Below, piece after piece: positions 59,246 to 64,000 of a DNA stretch of 64,000 nucleotides. How positions within the stretch are numbered: the stretch's first letter is position 1; every line of letters starts with the position of its first letter. Origin of the DNA: Deltaproteobacteria bacterium (GTDB lineage: Bacteria; Desulfobacterota; Syntrophobacteria; Syntrophobacterales; Syntrophobacteraceae). The notes beneath the pieces were generated by a model, which did not search any database, was not told the DNA's origin, and worked only from the letters and a program-made list of their open reading frames with translations. The translations under genes were made by a program, and so were the position numbers. The stretch spans positions 1 to 64,000 of the forward strand of contig JAAYVE010000021.1 of NCBI GenBank assembly GCA_012517315.1, read 5' to 3'.

Positions 59246-59552
59246 CGATTGGCGGGGTGGTTTCGAAACCTTGAATGCTGCAGCGCCGAACGGCCCACGG
59301 AGACCCTACGGGGGTTCCGTGGGCTTTTTCTTTCCTGCCGCCCCGAAGAAGGGGGGGAAGGTTTTCAGAAGCGCGGTCGGGTTCCGGGAGAACCGGCCGA
59401 CCTGCAGGTGCATCACCCACGGAGGGAGTCTTTGTCCCGCTGTGTTCGGTGAACGGTGGGATCACCCCTGAAAGCCCTTCCGTTCATGGCGGATTGACGG
59501 TGGCTGGATCGTAGGGGGCGGGAAACCAACGAACGGGAGGGGGTGTTTACCG
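59246..59552. other. Intergenic region after qmoC
   Basis: About 307 bp holding the qmo terminator near its left end. Beyond it nothing is recognisable apart from the GGGAGGGGG ribosome site of the next gene. Confidence 0.5.
59293..59333 (+). terminator. Intrinsic terminator of qmoABC
   Basis: GCCCACGGA (59293-59301) pairs perfectly with TCCGTGGGC (59316-59324); the loop can form an inner ACCC/GGGT stem. A run TTTTTCTTT follows immediately. This is the clearest rho-independent terminator in the window. Confidence 0.88.
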
Positions 59553-59894
59553 ATGGACGATGCATCGACATTTCTGGATGATTTCATTGACCTGCTGCCC
59601 CATCTGGATGTGGTTCATCACATACCGGGACGTGTTCGCCTGAAACTGCGCTTGTCGGGTCTCCCCGTCTTTTCCAGGATGGATGTGGACGAAGTCCTGA
59701 GGCGGATCCCCGGGCTCCTCGGCTTCAGGGTCAAGACACTGTCGCGTTCCGTGGTGGTGGACTACGACCACCAGGTTCTTCCCATGGGGCTGTGGGAGAA
59801 GATGGATCGGTTCAAACGGCAACCGGAATTGGAAGCGGAACTGCGCAGGGAATTGGGAGGGCTCTTCGCTCCCGAACTGGCGAAAGGGGGATGA
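59553..59894 (+). CDS. HMA2-like domain protein
   Basis: The 113-residue product has the HMA2-type motif HHIPGRVRLKLRLSG (about 21-35) and a following alpha/beta region (DVDEVLRRIPGLLGFRVKTLSRSVVVDYDHQVLP), the layout of small metal-binding-like domains beside P-type ATPases. There is no CxxC, so any metal would bind through other residues such as the His pair. A downstream charged helix (WEKMDRFKRQPELEAELRREL) could mediate contacts. It is the first of five same-strand genes ending in a P-type ATPase. Confidence 0.75.
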   Translation: MDDASTFLDDFIDLLPHLDVVHHIPGRVRLKLRLSGLPVFSRMDVDEVLRRIPGLLGFRVKTLSRSVVVDYDHQVLPMGLWEKMDRFKRQPELEAELRRELGGLFAPELAKGG

Positions 59895-60265
59895 ACGCCC
59901 CCGGACAATCGTTTTGCTTGGCGGGCCTCCCTTTATGGGAAGCCGCTGAATGCCCTGCAGGTCCCTTCTCCCCGCCTCACTTACGACCCCTCCCGTGACA
60001 TCGCCCTATAGGTAAGTAATGAATTTGCGGATGGACAGCCTTTTGTCCGGAACTGTACAGTATATCCTCACATCTTGGGGGATTCTCGTTGACAGGGAGG
60101 AAGGGGCTGCTGTAATTTTATGATACATTAACAGGCAGCGAGCAGGTTGTCCTATCTTTCATGTTCTTCCTCATGCCCGTGATTCCATAACCGGAAAGGC
60201 CAACGAACACGTTTTTCTGCTGCGTGGATTGGATAGAACCCAGGCCCAGCGAAAAGGAGGTCGAC
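59895..60265. other. Intergenic region in the metal-ATPase cluster
   Basis: About 370 bp without a credible gene. A possible promoter, TTGACA (60089-60094), 18 bp, TAATTT (60113-60118), lies about 150 bp upstream of the DUF5132-type gene. No operator for a known metal regulator could be recognised. Confidence 0.4.
60089..60118 (+). promoter_or_regulatory. Candidate promoter before the DUF5132-type gene
   Basis: TTGACA, 18 bp, TAATTT in the most A+T-rich stretch of the cluster. The -10 is weak; a better hexamer (TATGAT, 60119-60124) has no well-spaced -35. Confidence 0.4.
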
Positions 60266-60535
60266 ATGGCTCTTTTGGACAACGGATATCGTGTGGGGGC
60301 GGGCCTTGCCGTGGGCATCGGTGCCATTTTGCTTGCTCCGGTCCTGGTTCCGGTGGTGGCCGCGGCCGCCAAACCCATTATCAAGGCGGGCATCAAGGGG
60401 GGAATGCTTCTTTATGCCAAGACCAGGGAGATCATCGCGGAAACCCAGGAGGTGATCGAAGATCTAGCGGCTGAGGCGAAATCGGAGCTTGCCCAGGAGC
60501 AGCAGGTGGTTGTTCCCGAAGTGACCTCAGACTGA
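60266..60535 (+). CDS. DUF5132-like small membrane protein
   Basis: The 89-residue product has a long hydrophobic segment (VGAGLAVGIGAILLAPVLVPVVAAAA, about 10-35), then KPIIKAGIKGGMLLYAKTREIIAETQEVIEDLAAEAKSELAQEQ, the pattern of DUF5132 proteins seen beside metal P-type ATPase and HMA2 genes. Function unknown. The ribosome site AAAAGGAGGT is near-perfect. The next gene starts 12 bp after its stop. Confidence 0.72.
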   Translation: MALLDNGYRVGAGLAVGIGAILLAPVLVPVVAAAAKPIIKAGIKGGMLLYAKTREIIAETQEVIEDLAAEAKSELAQEQQVVVPEVTSD

Positions 60536-60547
60536 AAAAAGGCATTC

Positions 60548-61021
60548 ATGTTGCCCGATGCGTATATTTCCCATCGCACGGAGACCCGACTGCGCATCAA
60601 GATTCCTTGCAAAAGGAAAGACCGCCGCTTTTTCTCCCGGGTCACCGAGGCTCTTTCAGGGCAAGAGGGAATTGAGCGCGTGGTGGTCAACCCTCTCACG
60701 GGGAGTCTTCTACTCATCCACAGGTTGGCGCCGGGAATCGTGGAGGAAAGGTTGCGCCGAGCGCGTCTCTTCTCACTAGACGCGCCTCGGCAAGGGTCTT
60801 CCGGCCTCTTTGAAACGGTCTCGTCCGCCTTCCGCGCTGCAAACGAAACGGTGAAAGAAATCAGCCGGGGTGAGTTGGACATTGCGGGAATTGTGTTCGC
60901 AATTCTGATGTTCTCCGGACTCTATCAGATCAGCAGGGGGAATTTCATGGCCCCTGCATGGTACACGGCCTTCTGGTACGCCATGGGCATCATCATGAAG
61001 GCCGTTCCCGGTAGGGAGTGA
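60548..61021 (+). CDS. HMA2-like domain protein with C-terminal membrane region
   Basis: The 157-residue product has an HMA2-like domain at its N-terminus: AYISHRTETRLRIKIPCKRKDRRFFSRVTEALSGQEGIERVVVNPLTGSLLLIH. The HRTETRLRIKI segment aligns with HHIPGRVRLKL of the first gene and CKIKGRARYKI of the ATPase. Two hydrophobic segments follow (IAGIVFAILMFSGLYQIS and AWYTAFWYAMGIIMKAV), so the domain is tethered to the membrane. It is close behind the DUF5132-type gene and probably co-transcribed. Confidence 0.72.
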   Translation: MLPDAYISHRTETRLRIKIPCKRKDRRFFSRVTEALSGQEGIERVVVNPLTGSLLLIHRLAPGIVEERLRRARLFSLDAPRQGSSGLFETVSSAFRAANETVKEISRGELDIAGIVFAILMFSGLYQISRGNFMAPAWYTAFWYAMGIIMKAVPGRE

Positions 61022-61271
61022 TGGAGGATCACAGAGGGCATGCCCTTGTCCAGTTGCCGTTGATATGGTGGAGACGGAAGGCGCGGAAGGGCTTGCTTGT
61101 CCTTCCCCGTCGGCCCAATGCCCAGGGGGCTTTGGGTTTTCGAGGCCGTGACTTGGAAGGTGCGATCGTCTCCTGAGGGACACGACGAACCTCTCGCCCG
61201 TTCATTCCATGAAAGCGAGGTGTGGCATGGCCGTCAAGAGGGCGAGAAGCCCAAAAAGAAAGGAGGTCATC

Positions 61272-61898
61272 ATGAGTCCTGAAGAAACGACCACGAGGGG
61301 AGCCGGCGAAATGATCAGCAAGGCCGGCGCCGCTGTCAAAGACGGCGTGATCGGTGGTCTGAAGGGAATCTATGAAATCGAATCGCAGATCTTCAGCCTG
61401 GTGCGCAACACGGTCTCGGACGCCCTCAAAACGACGGGAACGGTGGCCGGGGAGGCCCTGAACGTCACGAGGGATGTGCTCAAGGGGACCATCAAGGCGA
61501 GCGAGGAGGTGGGAACCGGGCTGGTGCAAAGTGCCAAGAGCGTGGCCAAGGGATTGATCATGGGTGTCCACGACGTGGGAGGGGACATCCTGTCCACGGC
61601 AAAGCAGGCAATCATGGGAGCCATAAAGGGTGCCGCGGAGGTGGGAGCGGACGTGGGCCAGGTTGCCAGAAACACCGCCGAGGGGATTCTTGAAGCGGCC
61701 AAGGAAGTGGGAGCCAACGTGGCAGAGGTTGCCAAGGTGACGGTGAACGGTGCCATTGAAGCGGCCGGTTCCGTGGGGACCAGTACGGTCAAGGCCGTCA
61801 AGGACGTCTTGGTGGGGGCTGTGGAAGGCGTCAAGGAAGTGGTGGGTGCCGCCTTGCCCAAATCCCGGGGTTCGGGGTCGAGCCCCGGCCCTTCTTAA
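61272..61898 (+). CDS. Protein of six tandem 22-residue amphipathic repeats
   Basis: The 208-residue product has no signal peptide and no continuous membrane helix. From residue 60 to 192 it is six back-to-back 22-residue units (the last has 23), each ending V-G and with small residues at fixed spacing: GEALNVTRDVLKGTIK..VG, TGLVQSAKSVAKGLIM..VG, GDILSTAKQAIMGAIK..VG, ADVGQVARNTAEGILE..VG, ANVAEVAKVTVNGAIE..VG, TSTVKAVKDVLVGAVE..VG. Twenty-two (2 x 11) is the repeat length of apolipoprotein-type amphipathic helices that lie on lipid surfaces. Ribosome site AAAGGAGGT is very strong, implying high expression. Function unknown; the neighbours suggest a membrane-surface role in metal handling. 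Confidence 0.75.
   Translation: MSPEETTTRGAGEMISKAGAAVKDGVIGGLKGIYEIESQIFSLVRNTVSDALKTTGTVAGEALNVTRDVLKGTIKASEEVGTGLVQSAKSVAKGLIMGVHDVGGDILSTAKQAIMGAIKGAAEVGADVGQVARNTAEGILEAAKEVGANVAEVAKVTVNGAIEAAGSVGTSTVKAVKDVLVGAVEGVKEVVGAALPKSRGSGSSPGPS
61449..61847 (+). repeat. Six tandem 66-bp coding repeats
   Basis: Units begin at 61449, 61515, 61581, 61647, 61713 and 61779 and encode the 22-residue helix repeats described for the host gene. They are diverged at DNA level, so this is an old, selected protein repeat rather than a recent tandem duplication. Confidence 0.8.
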
Positions 61899-62216
61899 GA
61901 ATCCAAAGCCGCCCCAGTTCTGGGTGAAGTCAAGCGATCACGATTTCCCGGGAACGGCACGGTCCCTCCATTGCGTCCTCTTCCTTTCCCAGGACGTCTG
62001 TGCCGTTTCATTGCGGAGAATTGACTGTTCCGTGCGGCCTTTGGGGACCGACACGGCAACGCCTCTTCGCCCATCCGGATATAACGATTTCGATCATCAC
62101 CGATGTCGATTCTATTCTCATGCCCTGGCAGGTGAGGGATTCCTCTCTTTCCAGGGCGCCTATCCCGCCCGAGTTTTCCCATAAGGGAATGAGGGCATGG
62201 AAGGCTCCGTCCCGCC
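61899..62216. other. Intergenic region before the P-type ATPase gene
   Basis: About 318 bp. No terminator with a T-run, no clear promoter and no credible short gene were found. Confidence 0.4.
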
Positions 62217-64000
62217 GTGATTCGCATTGTCCATTGTAAAATTAAGGGAAGGGCGAGATACAAGATCCCCGATCTCTATCGCAGCAGGCCCCTGAAGGAA
62301 TACCTGGAAAGCCGCCTTTCCGCCAACGGGGACGTGCTCTCGGTGTTTGCGAGCGATCTCACGGGGAACGTGTTGCTCCTTTTCAACTCGGGCAATTCGT
62401 GGCAATCCATGGGGAAAGTCCTGACGGATCTCATGGAGGAATACCATTCGAGGTCTGCCGCTGCGTCGGGTGGGGTGAAGTGCGGGCTCCATTCCCTTCC
62501 GGCTCAAGAAACCGGGGAAGCGCAGTCGAGGGAGTCCAAAGGGGAGTTGAAGCTTTCCCTCGGGAAGATGTCGAAATCGCTCCTTTCCCTCGTGGGACGA
62601 GAGGAGCAGCCCGCCCATTCATGGCATGCCATGACAGCCGAGGCGGTTCTCTCCGCGTGCCGGTCACGGTGGAAAGAGGGTTTGTCCCAGGAGGAAGCTC
62701 GTGCCGGCCTCCTGAAATACGGCGCCAACGCCCTTCCTGAACCTGCCGTTCGCTCGAGGCTCGGCATGTTTGTGGGGCAGTTCCTGTCCCTCCCTGTGGC
62801 CCTCCTGGGGGCTGCGGCGGCGATTTCCATCGCTACGGGAGGCATTGCCGATGCCCTGGTGATCCTGGGCGTGGTGGGCATCAACGCGGCCATCGGTTTT
62901 GTCACCGAAAGCGAAGCGGAGCGCACCATCGCCTCCCTCAAGCACCTCGTGAAGCCCAACGCCCACGTGATCCGGGAGCGGGTCACGCGGGAGATTCCCG
63001 TGGAAGAGGTGGTGCCGGGGGACCTCGTCGTGCTGCGTCCGGGAACGTATGTGCCTGCGGACGCCCGTGTGGTGGAAGCCTACAATCTCAGTGTGGACGA
63101 GTCGGCCCTCACGGGGGAGAGCCTCCCCGTGCACAAGAGTTGTGAGGCCCTGGCCGGGGAGGACCTCCCCCTCGCGGACCGGGTGAACATGGTCTTCATG
63201 GGGACGCTCGTGACAGGGGGGCAGGGGGTTGCCGTCGTAGTGGCAACGGGCGGGCATGCGGAAATGGGGCGGCTCCAGAGGCTCGTCGGCGAGGCTTCGG
63301 CTCCGGAAACCCCGATGGAGAGGCAGTTGGAGCAGATGGGCAATCAACTGGTCCTCATCAGTGGGGGGGTCTGCGCTGTCGTGTTTTGCATCGGGTTCCT
63401 GAGGGGCTACGGTCTGCTGCAGATGCTCCAGAGTTCCATTTCCCTGGCTGTGGCGGCTGTTCCCGAAGGGCTTCCCACCATCGCCACGATGACCCTCGCC
63501 CTGGGCATCCGTAAGATGCGCCGCCACCAGGTGCTCATTCGCAAGCTGGATGCGGTGGAGACCCTGGGGGCCCTCCAGACCATCTGCTTTGACAAGACGG
63601 GGACGGTCACCGAAAACCGCATGTCCGTGCGCAGGGTGTACGCAGGGATGCGGCACGTGACGGTTGTGGACGGAACCTTTCGATGCGATTCCGGCCCGCT
63701 GGATCTGCATAATTTTGAGGACCTGCGGCAACTTCTGAAGGTGTGCGTCCTATGCAGTGAAACCCACATCATTCGCAAAAACGAAACATACAAGTTGAAG
63801 GGCACTTCCACGGAAAACGCCCTCGTTTGGATGAGTCTCTGTTCCGGGTTGGACGTCGTGGGGCTGCGGCGTGCGCATCCGTTGATCAAAACGCGGCACA
63901 GAACGGAGGACCGCCATTTCATGGCGACCCTCCACCGGATGGAGGACGGCAGGAGGCTCATGGCCGTCAAGGGGAGCCCCCTGGAGGTCCTGGCCATGTG
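62217..64000 (+). CDS. P-type cation ATPase with N-terminal HMA2-like domain (partial)
   Basis: The gene starts at GTG 62217 and runs open past the right edge (at least 594 codons). Residues 1-80 form an HMA2-like domain (CKIKGRARYKI, then DLTGNVLLLFNSGN), followed by a linker. A P-type ATPase follows: N-terminal LSQEEARAGLLKYGANALPE, actuator TGES at 299-302, TM4 motif PEGLP at 416-420, and phosphorylation site DKTGT from Asp459. PEGLP is the hallmark of P2-type (Ca/Na/H-like) pumps, not the CPC/SPC of heavy-metal P1B pumps, so the HMA2-like front end on a P2-like core is notable and resembles the mycobacterial CtpH/CtpI group. The ion is unknown. No good ribosome site was found, though MIRIVHCK as the start fits the domain. 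Confidence 0.88.
   Translation, partial: MIRIVHCKIKGRARYKIPDLYRSRPLKEYLESRLSANGDVLSVFASDLTGNVLLLFNSGNSWQSMGKVLTDLMEEYHSRSAAASGGVKCGLHSLPAQETGEAQSRESKGELKLSLGKMSKSLLSLVGREEQPAHSWHAMTAEAVLSACRSRWKEGLSQEEARAGLLKYGANALPEPAVRSRLGMFVGQFLSLPVALLGAAAAISIATGGIADALVILGVVGINAAIGFVTESEAERTIASLKHLVKPNAHVIRERVTREIPVEEVVPGDLVVLRPGTYVPADARVVEAYNLSVDESALTGESLPVHKSCEALAGEDLPLADRVNMVFMGTLVTGGQGVAVVVATGGHAEMGRLQRLVGEASAPETPMERQLEQMGNQLVLISGGVCAVVFCIGFLRGYGLLQMLQSSISLAVAAVPEGLPTIATMTLALGIRKMRRHQVLIRKLDAVETLGALQTICFDKTGTVTENRMSVRRVYAGMRHVTVVDGTFRCDSGPLDLHNFEDLRQLLKVCVLCSETHIIRKNETYKLKGTSTENALVWMSLCSGLDVVGLRRAHPLIKTRHRTEDRHFMATLHRMEDGRRLMAVKGSPLEVLAM

Follow-up and report, generated by a model that had tools for sequence, protein, structure and literature searches.

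An apparently undescribed operon joining DUF5132 and HMA2-like proteins with a predicted Ca2+-type ATPase and a MetK-like protein in sulfur-cycling bacteria

The gene cluster and its surroundings

The 64,000 nucleotides (nt) of DNA analysed here (the window; positions 1 to 64,000 of contig JAAYVE010000021.1, assembly GCA_012517315.1, from a Deltaproteobacteria bacterium of the family Syntrophobacteraceae) close with a cluster of genes for two small HMA2-like proteins (HMA2a and HMA2b), a DUF5132 protein, an amphipathic repeat protein (REP) and a P-type ATPase of the P2A type. All five lie on the + strand behind qmoABC, from which a terminator-like hairpin with a T-run, found 3' of qmoC by a promoter and terminator scan (59305-59323, + strand), separates them; gene coordinates and hairpin together bear out the arrangement proposed in an earlier note that a model had made from the sequence. 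HMA2a (59553-59894), a protein of 113 amino acids (aa) with the motif HHIPGRVRLKL, is followed by DUF5132-A (60266-60535; 89 aa), in which one transmembrane (TM) helix with a conserved Gly17 precedes an acidic helix rich in Glu and Ala, and by HMA2b (60548-61021; 157 aa), an HMA2 domain with a membrane hairpin and a C-terminal APAWYTAFWYA signature. REP (61272-61898; 208 aa) holds seven repeats of 22 residues (2x11) with 11/3-helix periodicity (61404-61865). The ATPase, of 1021 aa, occupies 62217-64000 of the window and ends at contig position 65282; Pfam matches and alignments place its N-terminal HMA2-like domain (KGRARYKI) at 62217-62396, the PEGLP of TM4, with the Ca2+ ligand that corresponds to Glu309 of SERCA, at 63462-63476 and the DKTGT phosphorylation motif at 63591-63605. 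The profile PF17195 matched the DUF5132 gene at 41 bits (cut-off 25), in agreement with the one-helix DUF5132-type protein of the earlier note. PF19991 (HMA_2) scored 54.7 bits on HMA2b against a cut-off of 30; HMA2a, at 22.5 bits, and the ATPase N-terminus, at 17.8 bits, fell short of that cut-off with this profile alone, and both were recovered with a family profile.

The intergenic gaps among the five genes are 371, 12, 250 and 318 nt, and in the source genome they are not one tight operon. The ATPase that the earlier note placed at the end of the cluster is indeed there, but the cluster continues past it and beyond the window. Reading the rest of the ATPase gene and its downstream neighbours, as the note had advised, brought to light a MetK-like gene that overlaps the pump's stop (65272-66507 of the window's contig, C47 in our numbering), a diverged second DUF5132 gene on the - strand (C47:66597-66851, or L006:11597-11851) and, divergent to it, a P1B ATPase that has an HMA2 N-terminus and a CPC motif (C47:67112-69340). 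The most informative component, the MetK-like gene, thus sits just outside the window. No other DUF5132 gene in the source genome scores above the cut-off, and the diverged copy beside the P1B ATPase suggests that each pump may be paired with a DUF5132 protein of its own. A tie to the upstream qmo genes was considered and rejected, given the intervening terminator and the absence of qmo families from those common to the loci of at least four relatives. An Rfam scan of the cluster returned only a sub-threshold CRISPR repeat match, and no known S-adenosylmethionine (SAM) or metal riboswitch.

Conservation across genera and phyla

That these families belong together as one real, conserved system is almost certain. 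Among 60 related genomes DUF5132 was found in 19, every one of which falls within the 20 that carry HMA_2 (19/19 versus 1/41, Fisher p=1e-14); the MetK-like gene accompanies it in 17 of the 19 versus 1/41 of the others (p=8e-12), and REP in 16 of the 19 versus 0/41 (p=6e-12). Across the phylum DUF5132 is patchy, with 11 of 197 genomes positive. The order DUF5132 - HMA2b - (REP) - P2A - MetK-like recurs across 45 distinct DUF5132 loci, where a P2A pump is present at 34, HMA2b at 33 (a count inflated by the 21 loci that came from an HMA2b query), the MetK-like gene at 25, a zinc-ribbon protein at 20, REP at 17 and a P1B pump at seven. The median gap is 3 nt between DUF5132 and HMA2b (31 pairs) and -4 nt between the P2A pump and the MetK-like gene (24 pairs), and translational coupling is therefore indicated. 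Co-occurrence of the five families, on which the earlier note had staked its proposal, was thus found together with synteny across genera and phyla.

The core operon is present in Desulfobacterota and Nitrospirota, its hosts including Syntrophobacteraceae, Desulfosoma, Desulfomonile, Desulfatibacillum, strain NaphS2 and the Nitrospirota Thermodesulfovibrionales. Its usual neighbours are a small zinc-ribbon protein and additional HMA2 proteins; REP, a P1B pump or a P2A-like ATPase that lacks ion ligands sometimes joins them. Two DUF5132 genes, an HMA2-bearing P2A pump and two HMA2 proteins are also carried by the megaplasmid pMVF16-1 of Microvirga sp. VF16. The operon is conserved in many sulfur-cycling bacteria and apparently undescribed, which upholds the earlier note's choice of this cluster as a candidate new system; a search of 5.39 million open-access papers found no mention of DUF5132.

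Two overlapping genes lie 30 kb off in the source genome (C47:97597-98263, or L018:7597-8263); one encodes a zinc-ribbon protein of the InsA/IS1595-like type, the other an HMA2 protein that has a hydrophobic stretch at its C-terminus. The same pair is often convergent to the main operon elsewhere (L071, L077, L084, L089-L091, L093) and is a possible regulator of the system. The closest relative, of the same genus (G001), has the MetK-like gene and an HMA2-bearing frame of ~1012 aa (C230:2439-3629 and C469:1457-1627); it gave no DUF5132 match, and its 740-contig assembly may simply miss the gene.

The pump

The nearest solved structures to the pump are SPCA1, LMCA1 and SERCA. The SERCA ligands E309, N768, E771, N796 and D800 all recur unchanged in the source genome's own pump and in the other cluster pumps compared, 15 of 15, while T799 is replaced by Ser and E908 (Glu908) by Gln in all 16. 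Because the Ca2+-ligand residues are identical in all 16, the pump is assigned by sequence to the Ca2+-type (possibly Mn2+) P2A ATPases and not to the P1B heavy-metal or iron pumps. It shares its fold, DKTGT, PEGL and the ligands N768, E771, N796 and D800 with the bacterial P2A Ca2+-ATPase LMCA1 (lmo0841) and with SPCA1 and SERCA, and differs from them in its N-terminal HMA2-like domain, its long linker, the Gln at Glu908 and its place in an operon with scaffold-like proteins and a MetK-like protein.

A second P2A-like ATPase with an HMA2 N-terminus stands alone in the source genome (C59:20159-23302, or L017:8159-11302), and the same type adjoins the main operon in three Desulfobacterales loci (L081:15804-18839, L089:16251-19307 and L093:16427-19342). 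All four keep the catalytic Asp and the Glu of TGES, carry PSGL or PAGL in place of PEGL and have lost E309 and D800; judged from these residues, a regulatory or non-transporting pump is possible.

A MetK fold without its methionine site

The MetK-like protein matches all three S-AdoMet_synt Pfam domains (N, M and C) far above cut-off. Its sequence identities are bimodal, at 60-100% within the cluster clade and 39-44% to canonical MetK, which is itself also present in the source genome and in nearly every relative searched, and a tree of 36 distinct sequences places the two in separate clades with support of 100/100. The residue counts that follow refer to 40 rows, some of which are duplicate fetches of one gene. 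In E. coli MetK, methionine is bound by E55, Q98, D238 and K269 (PMC1282579, PMC3853416). All four contacts are replaced in the cluster protein, E55 by Arg in 39/40, D238 by His and K269 by Arg in 40/40, and Q98 by residues that are never Gln. Kept, on the other hand, are the catalytic H14 (39/40), D16, K17, E42, R244, K245, K265 and D271 (each 40/40) and K165 (34/40); D118 is mostly replaced (by N, Q or S in 35/40), and the adenine-stacking F230 is kept in 12/40. The protein thus shares with the E. coli enzyme the three-domain family, the residues for Mg2+ (D16) and K+ (E42) and most of the triphosphate site, and differs from it in the loss of E55, Q98, D238 and K269, in the mostly replaced D118 and in its separate, deep clade.

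Such a protein should still bind triphosphate and should not bind methionine in the known way, nor should it make SAM by the usual route. With basic residues now in place of both acidic ligands of the amino group, an alpha-amino acid is an improbable substrate; the protein more likely acts on a compound that lacks an amino group, or carries out plain triphosphate chemistry. Among plasmid matches to the MetK-like protein the best, from Anoxybacillus and the one that was opened, proved to be a canonical MetK and was set aside. Among titles returned by a literature search, nothing relevant was found on a link between MetK and P-type ATPases or on Ca granules in sulfate reducers.

Docking domains, anchor and repeat protein

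The short motif that the earlier note had seen in three of the proteins runs through the family: across 109 family domains it reads H-x5-G-R-x-R-x-K, with the two arginines present in 99% each and a basic third residue in 92%. CxxC metal ligands, which mark classical HMA domains, occur in two of the 109; the HMA2 domains probably serve for docking and not for carrying metal. In an AlphaFold2 model of HMA2b (mean predicted local distance difference test score, pLDDT, 84) a ferredoxin-like domain leads into an amphipathic helix, after which come two membrane helices; a fold search with this model returned HMA domains among weak matches, none with an E-value below 0.004, and supports an HMA fold without proving it.

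All 17 DUF5132 proteins in the alignment match PF17195 and have one hydrophobic segment with an invariant G17; position 9 is Lys or Arg in most members. The tail is acidic in 17/17, with a net charge between -1 and -11 and with E59, D66, E70 and E74 invariant, and none of the tails ends in a C-terminal His motif.

In REP, self-identity at a lag of 22 residues is 29%, with the next peak at a lag of 44. Its hydrophobic moment is greatest, at 0.389, for 98 degrees per residue, the angle of an 11/3 helix, whereas none of 1000 shuffled sequences exceeded 0.213; the 22-residue repeat is beyond chance. Periodicity of this kind is known from synuclein and apolipoproteins. Together with weak Pfam matches to Senescence, Phasin_2, Synuclein and ApoLp-III, it supports the lipid-surface-type repeat protein of the earlier note. 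The 11/22-residue amphipathic repeats and 11/3-helix periodicity are those of phasin-, synuclein- and senescence-type proteins, from which REP differs in that its profile matches are weak only and that, in the genomes searched, it is tied to the cluster. Its AlphaFold2 model is all-helical with a mean pLDDT of 43, and this low confidence is why no claim is made about its fold. The note had also suggested that REP may coat or curve the membrane; the membrane-surface character stands, but REP is absent from most Desulfobacterales loci and is an accessory, not a central, part. In part of the family it may shape or coat the membrane.

A scaffolded pump platform

The closest functional parallel that we can draw is with the PacL/CtpC effluxosomes of mycobacteria, in which Glu55, Glu59 and Glu71 of PacL1 are required for contact with the CtpC N-terminus (PMC9374683) and the TM residues K9, G17 and G20 of PacL are required for clustering (PMC13043812). 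Common to both systems are a small protein with one TM segment and an acidic, Glu- and Ala-rich cytoplasmic helix, encoded upstream of a P-type ATPase, and a partner ATPase whose N-terminus is HMA2-like with a GRxR motif (a Rhodococcus relative was tested; the cluster pump has GRARYKI). The best plasmid relatives of the cluster's P1B pump are Rhodococcus ATPases, and the one that was opened is encoded directly after a DUF1490 gene; this ATPase matches the family profile at E=5e-9 and PF19991 at 1.7e-5 (25.2 bits, below the cut-off of 30). The differences are that DUF5132 shows no detectable homology to DUF1490 and lacks the His motif at the C-terminus, that the core pump is P2A and not P1B, that further HMA2 adaptors, REP and a MetK-like protein are added, and that the hosts belong to other phyla. 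By analogy, the working principle of the two systems is likely the same, since the acidic helix of PacL1 contacts CtpC and, in Rhodococcus, an HMA2-like ATPase follows a DUF1490 gene.

We propose, with a probability of roughly one half, that the cluster encodes a scaffolded Ca2+-type pump platform which works like PacL/CtpC and has a repurposed MetK-fold partner. DUF5132 would anchor in the membrane and self-associate through its glycine-bearing TM helix, and its acidic helix would dock on the HMA2 domains of pump and adaptors at their basic H...GRxRxK strand. The pump would thereby be gathered in a patch of membrane, the role that PacL1 plays for CtpC. The pump would then move Ca2+ (or Mn2+) out of the cytosol, to the periplasm or to an internal membrane space; where REP is present, its 11/3 amphipathic helix would rest on the membrane concerned. 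Translation of the MetK-like protein would be coupled to that of the pump, and the protein would perform ATP or triphosphate chemistry on a changed substrate, or serve as a partner of the pump that hydrolyses or senses ATP or tripolyphosphate. More tentatively, the whole could be a new machine in which a DUF5132/HMA2-scaffolded Ca2+-type pump is coupled to an enzyme of the MetK fold that has given up methionine, with an ATP-derived product or a triphosphate reaction driving or regulating how ions are loaded into a membrane domain or compartment.

Several points weigh against the scaffolded platform. A homology between DUF5132 and DUF1490/PacL was sought and rejected, hhalign giving probabilities of 0.3-3% in a comparison with shuffled controls and no DUF1490 match appearing at E<=10, and the scaffold role therefore rests on analogy; Lys9, the PacL position, is not conserved in all DUF5132 proteins. 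The Gln at Glu908 may mean that one of the two Ca2+ sites is altered, and both the ion specificity of the pump and the partnership of the proteins are predictions from genomic data. The inflated HMA2b count belongs here too. Finally, the MetK-like gene was absent from two DUF5132-positive relatives and was not found on the Microvirga megaplasmid, and it is therefore not obligatory.

Alternative explanations

The alternative that survives best, though we consider it doubtful, is plain export or homeostasis of Ca2+, Mn2+ or heavy metals, with HMA2 and DUF5132 proteins acting as regulators or chaperones and with neither patch nor compartment. Intact catalytic and ion residues in a Ca2+-type pump fit it, as do the CPC-motif P1B pump nearby in some loci and a zinc-ribbon protein that is possibly a regulator; it leaves unexplained why a locus should hold several HMA2 proteins, an acidic single-TM DUF5132 protein, REP and an altered MetK-like protein. 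An internal Ca2+ store is unlikely. Here vesicles or granules, perhaps with polyphosphate and resembling acidocalcisomes, would be filled by the P2A pump, coated in part of the family by REP and served by the MetK-like protein as a tripolyphosphatase. That protein does keep most triphosphate-site residues while losing the methionine site, and the Microvirga pMVF16-1 version of the cluster has, directly upstream of it, two genes (L129:4728-6339) with the CYTH domain, which occurs in enzymes that cleave triphosphate. CYTH genes are, however, absent from all other loci searched, and CYTH triphosphatases were rejected as a regular partner; nor was a proton pump or polyphosphate kinase noticed in the clusters.

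Less likely again is that the MetK-like protein is simply a second SAM synthase under separate control and says nothing special about the pump: its three S-AdoMet_synt domains are intact, but a canonical MetK is already at hand in nearly all relatives and the host, and the four methionine contacts are consistently replaced in the 40 sequences. The most improbable of these alternatives is the iron-directed one towards which the earlier note leaned, a ferrosome-like storage organelle whose pump loads iron into vesicles shaped by REP: ferrosome (Fez) clusters, partly from Desulfobacterota, likewise combine a P-type ATPase and small membrane proteins in one operon, REP resembles lipid-surface proteins and the hosts are anaerobic, but the pump that is conserved belongs to P2A, with Ca2+ ligands that do not vary, and not to P1B-6, P1B pumps and REP are missing from most loci, the HMA2 domains are without metal cysteines, and this cluster yielded neither of the two components named in the part of the ferrosome literature covered here, FezB (P1B-6) and FezC (a DUF4405-like cytochrome), so that its sequence sets it outside the ferrosomes on both counts (the sole DUF4405 match in the genome is on another contig, C22:10826-11026).

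Implications

If the scaffolded platform is real, mycobacteria are not alone in gathering P-type pumps with small membrane scaffolds: anaerobic bacteria of the sulfur cycle would do likewise, using another class of pump and a scaffold unrelated to theirs. The MetK-like proteins form a large and consistent family that is annotated as SAM synthase and has lost every methionine contact, and that annotation is probably wrong. For DUF5132, the cluster would provide a first functional context.

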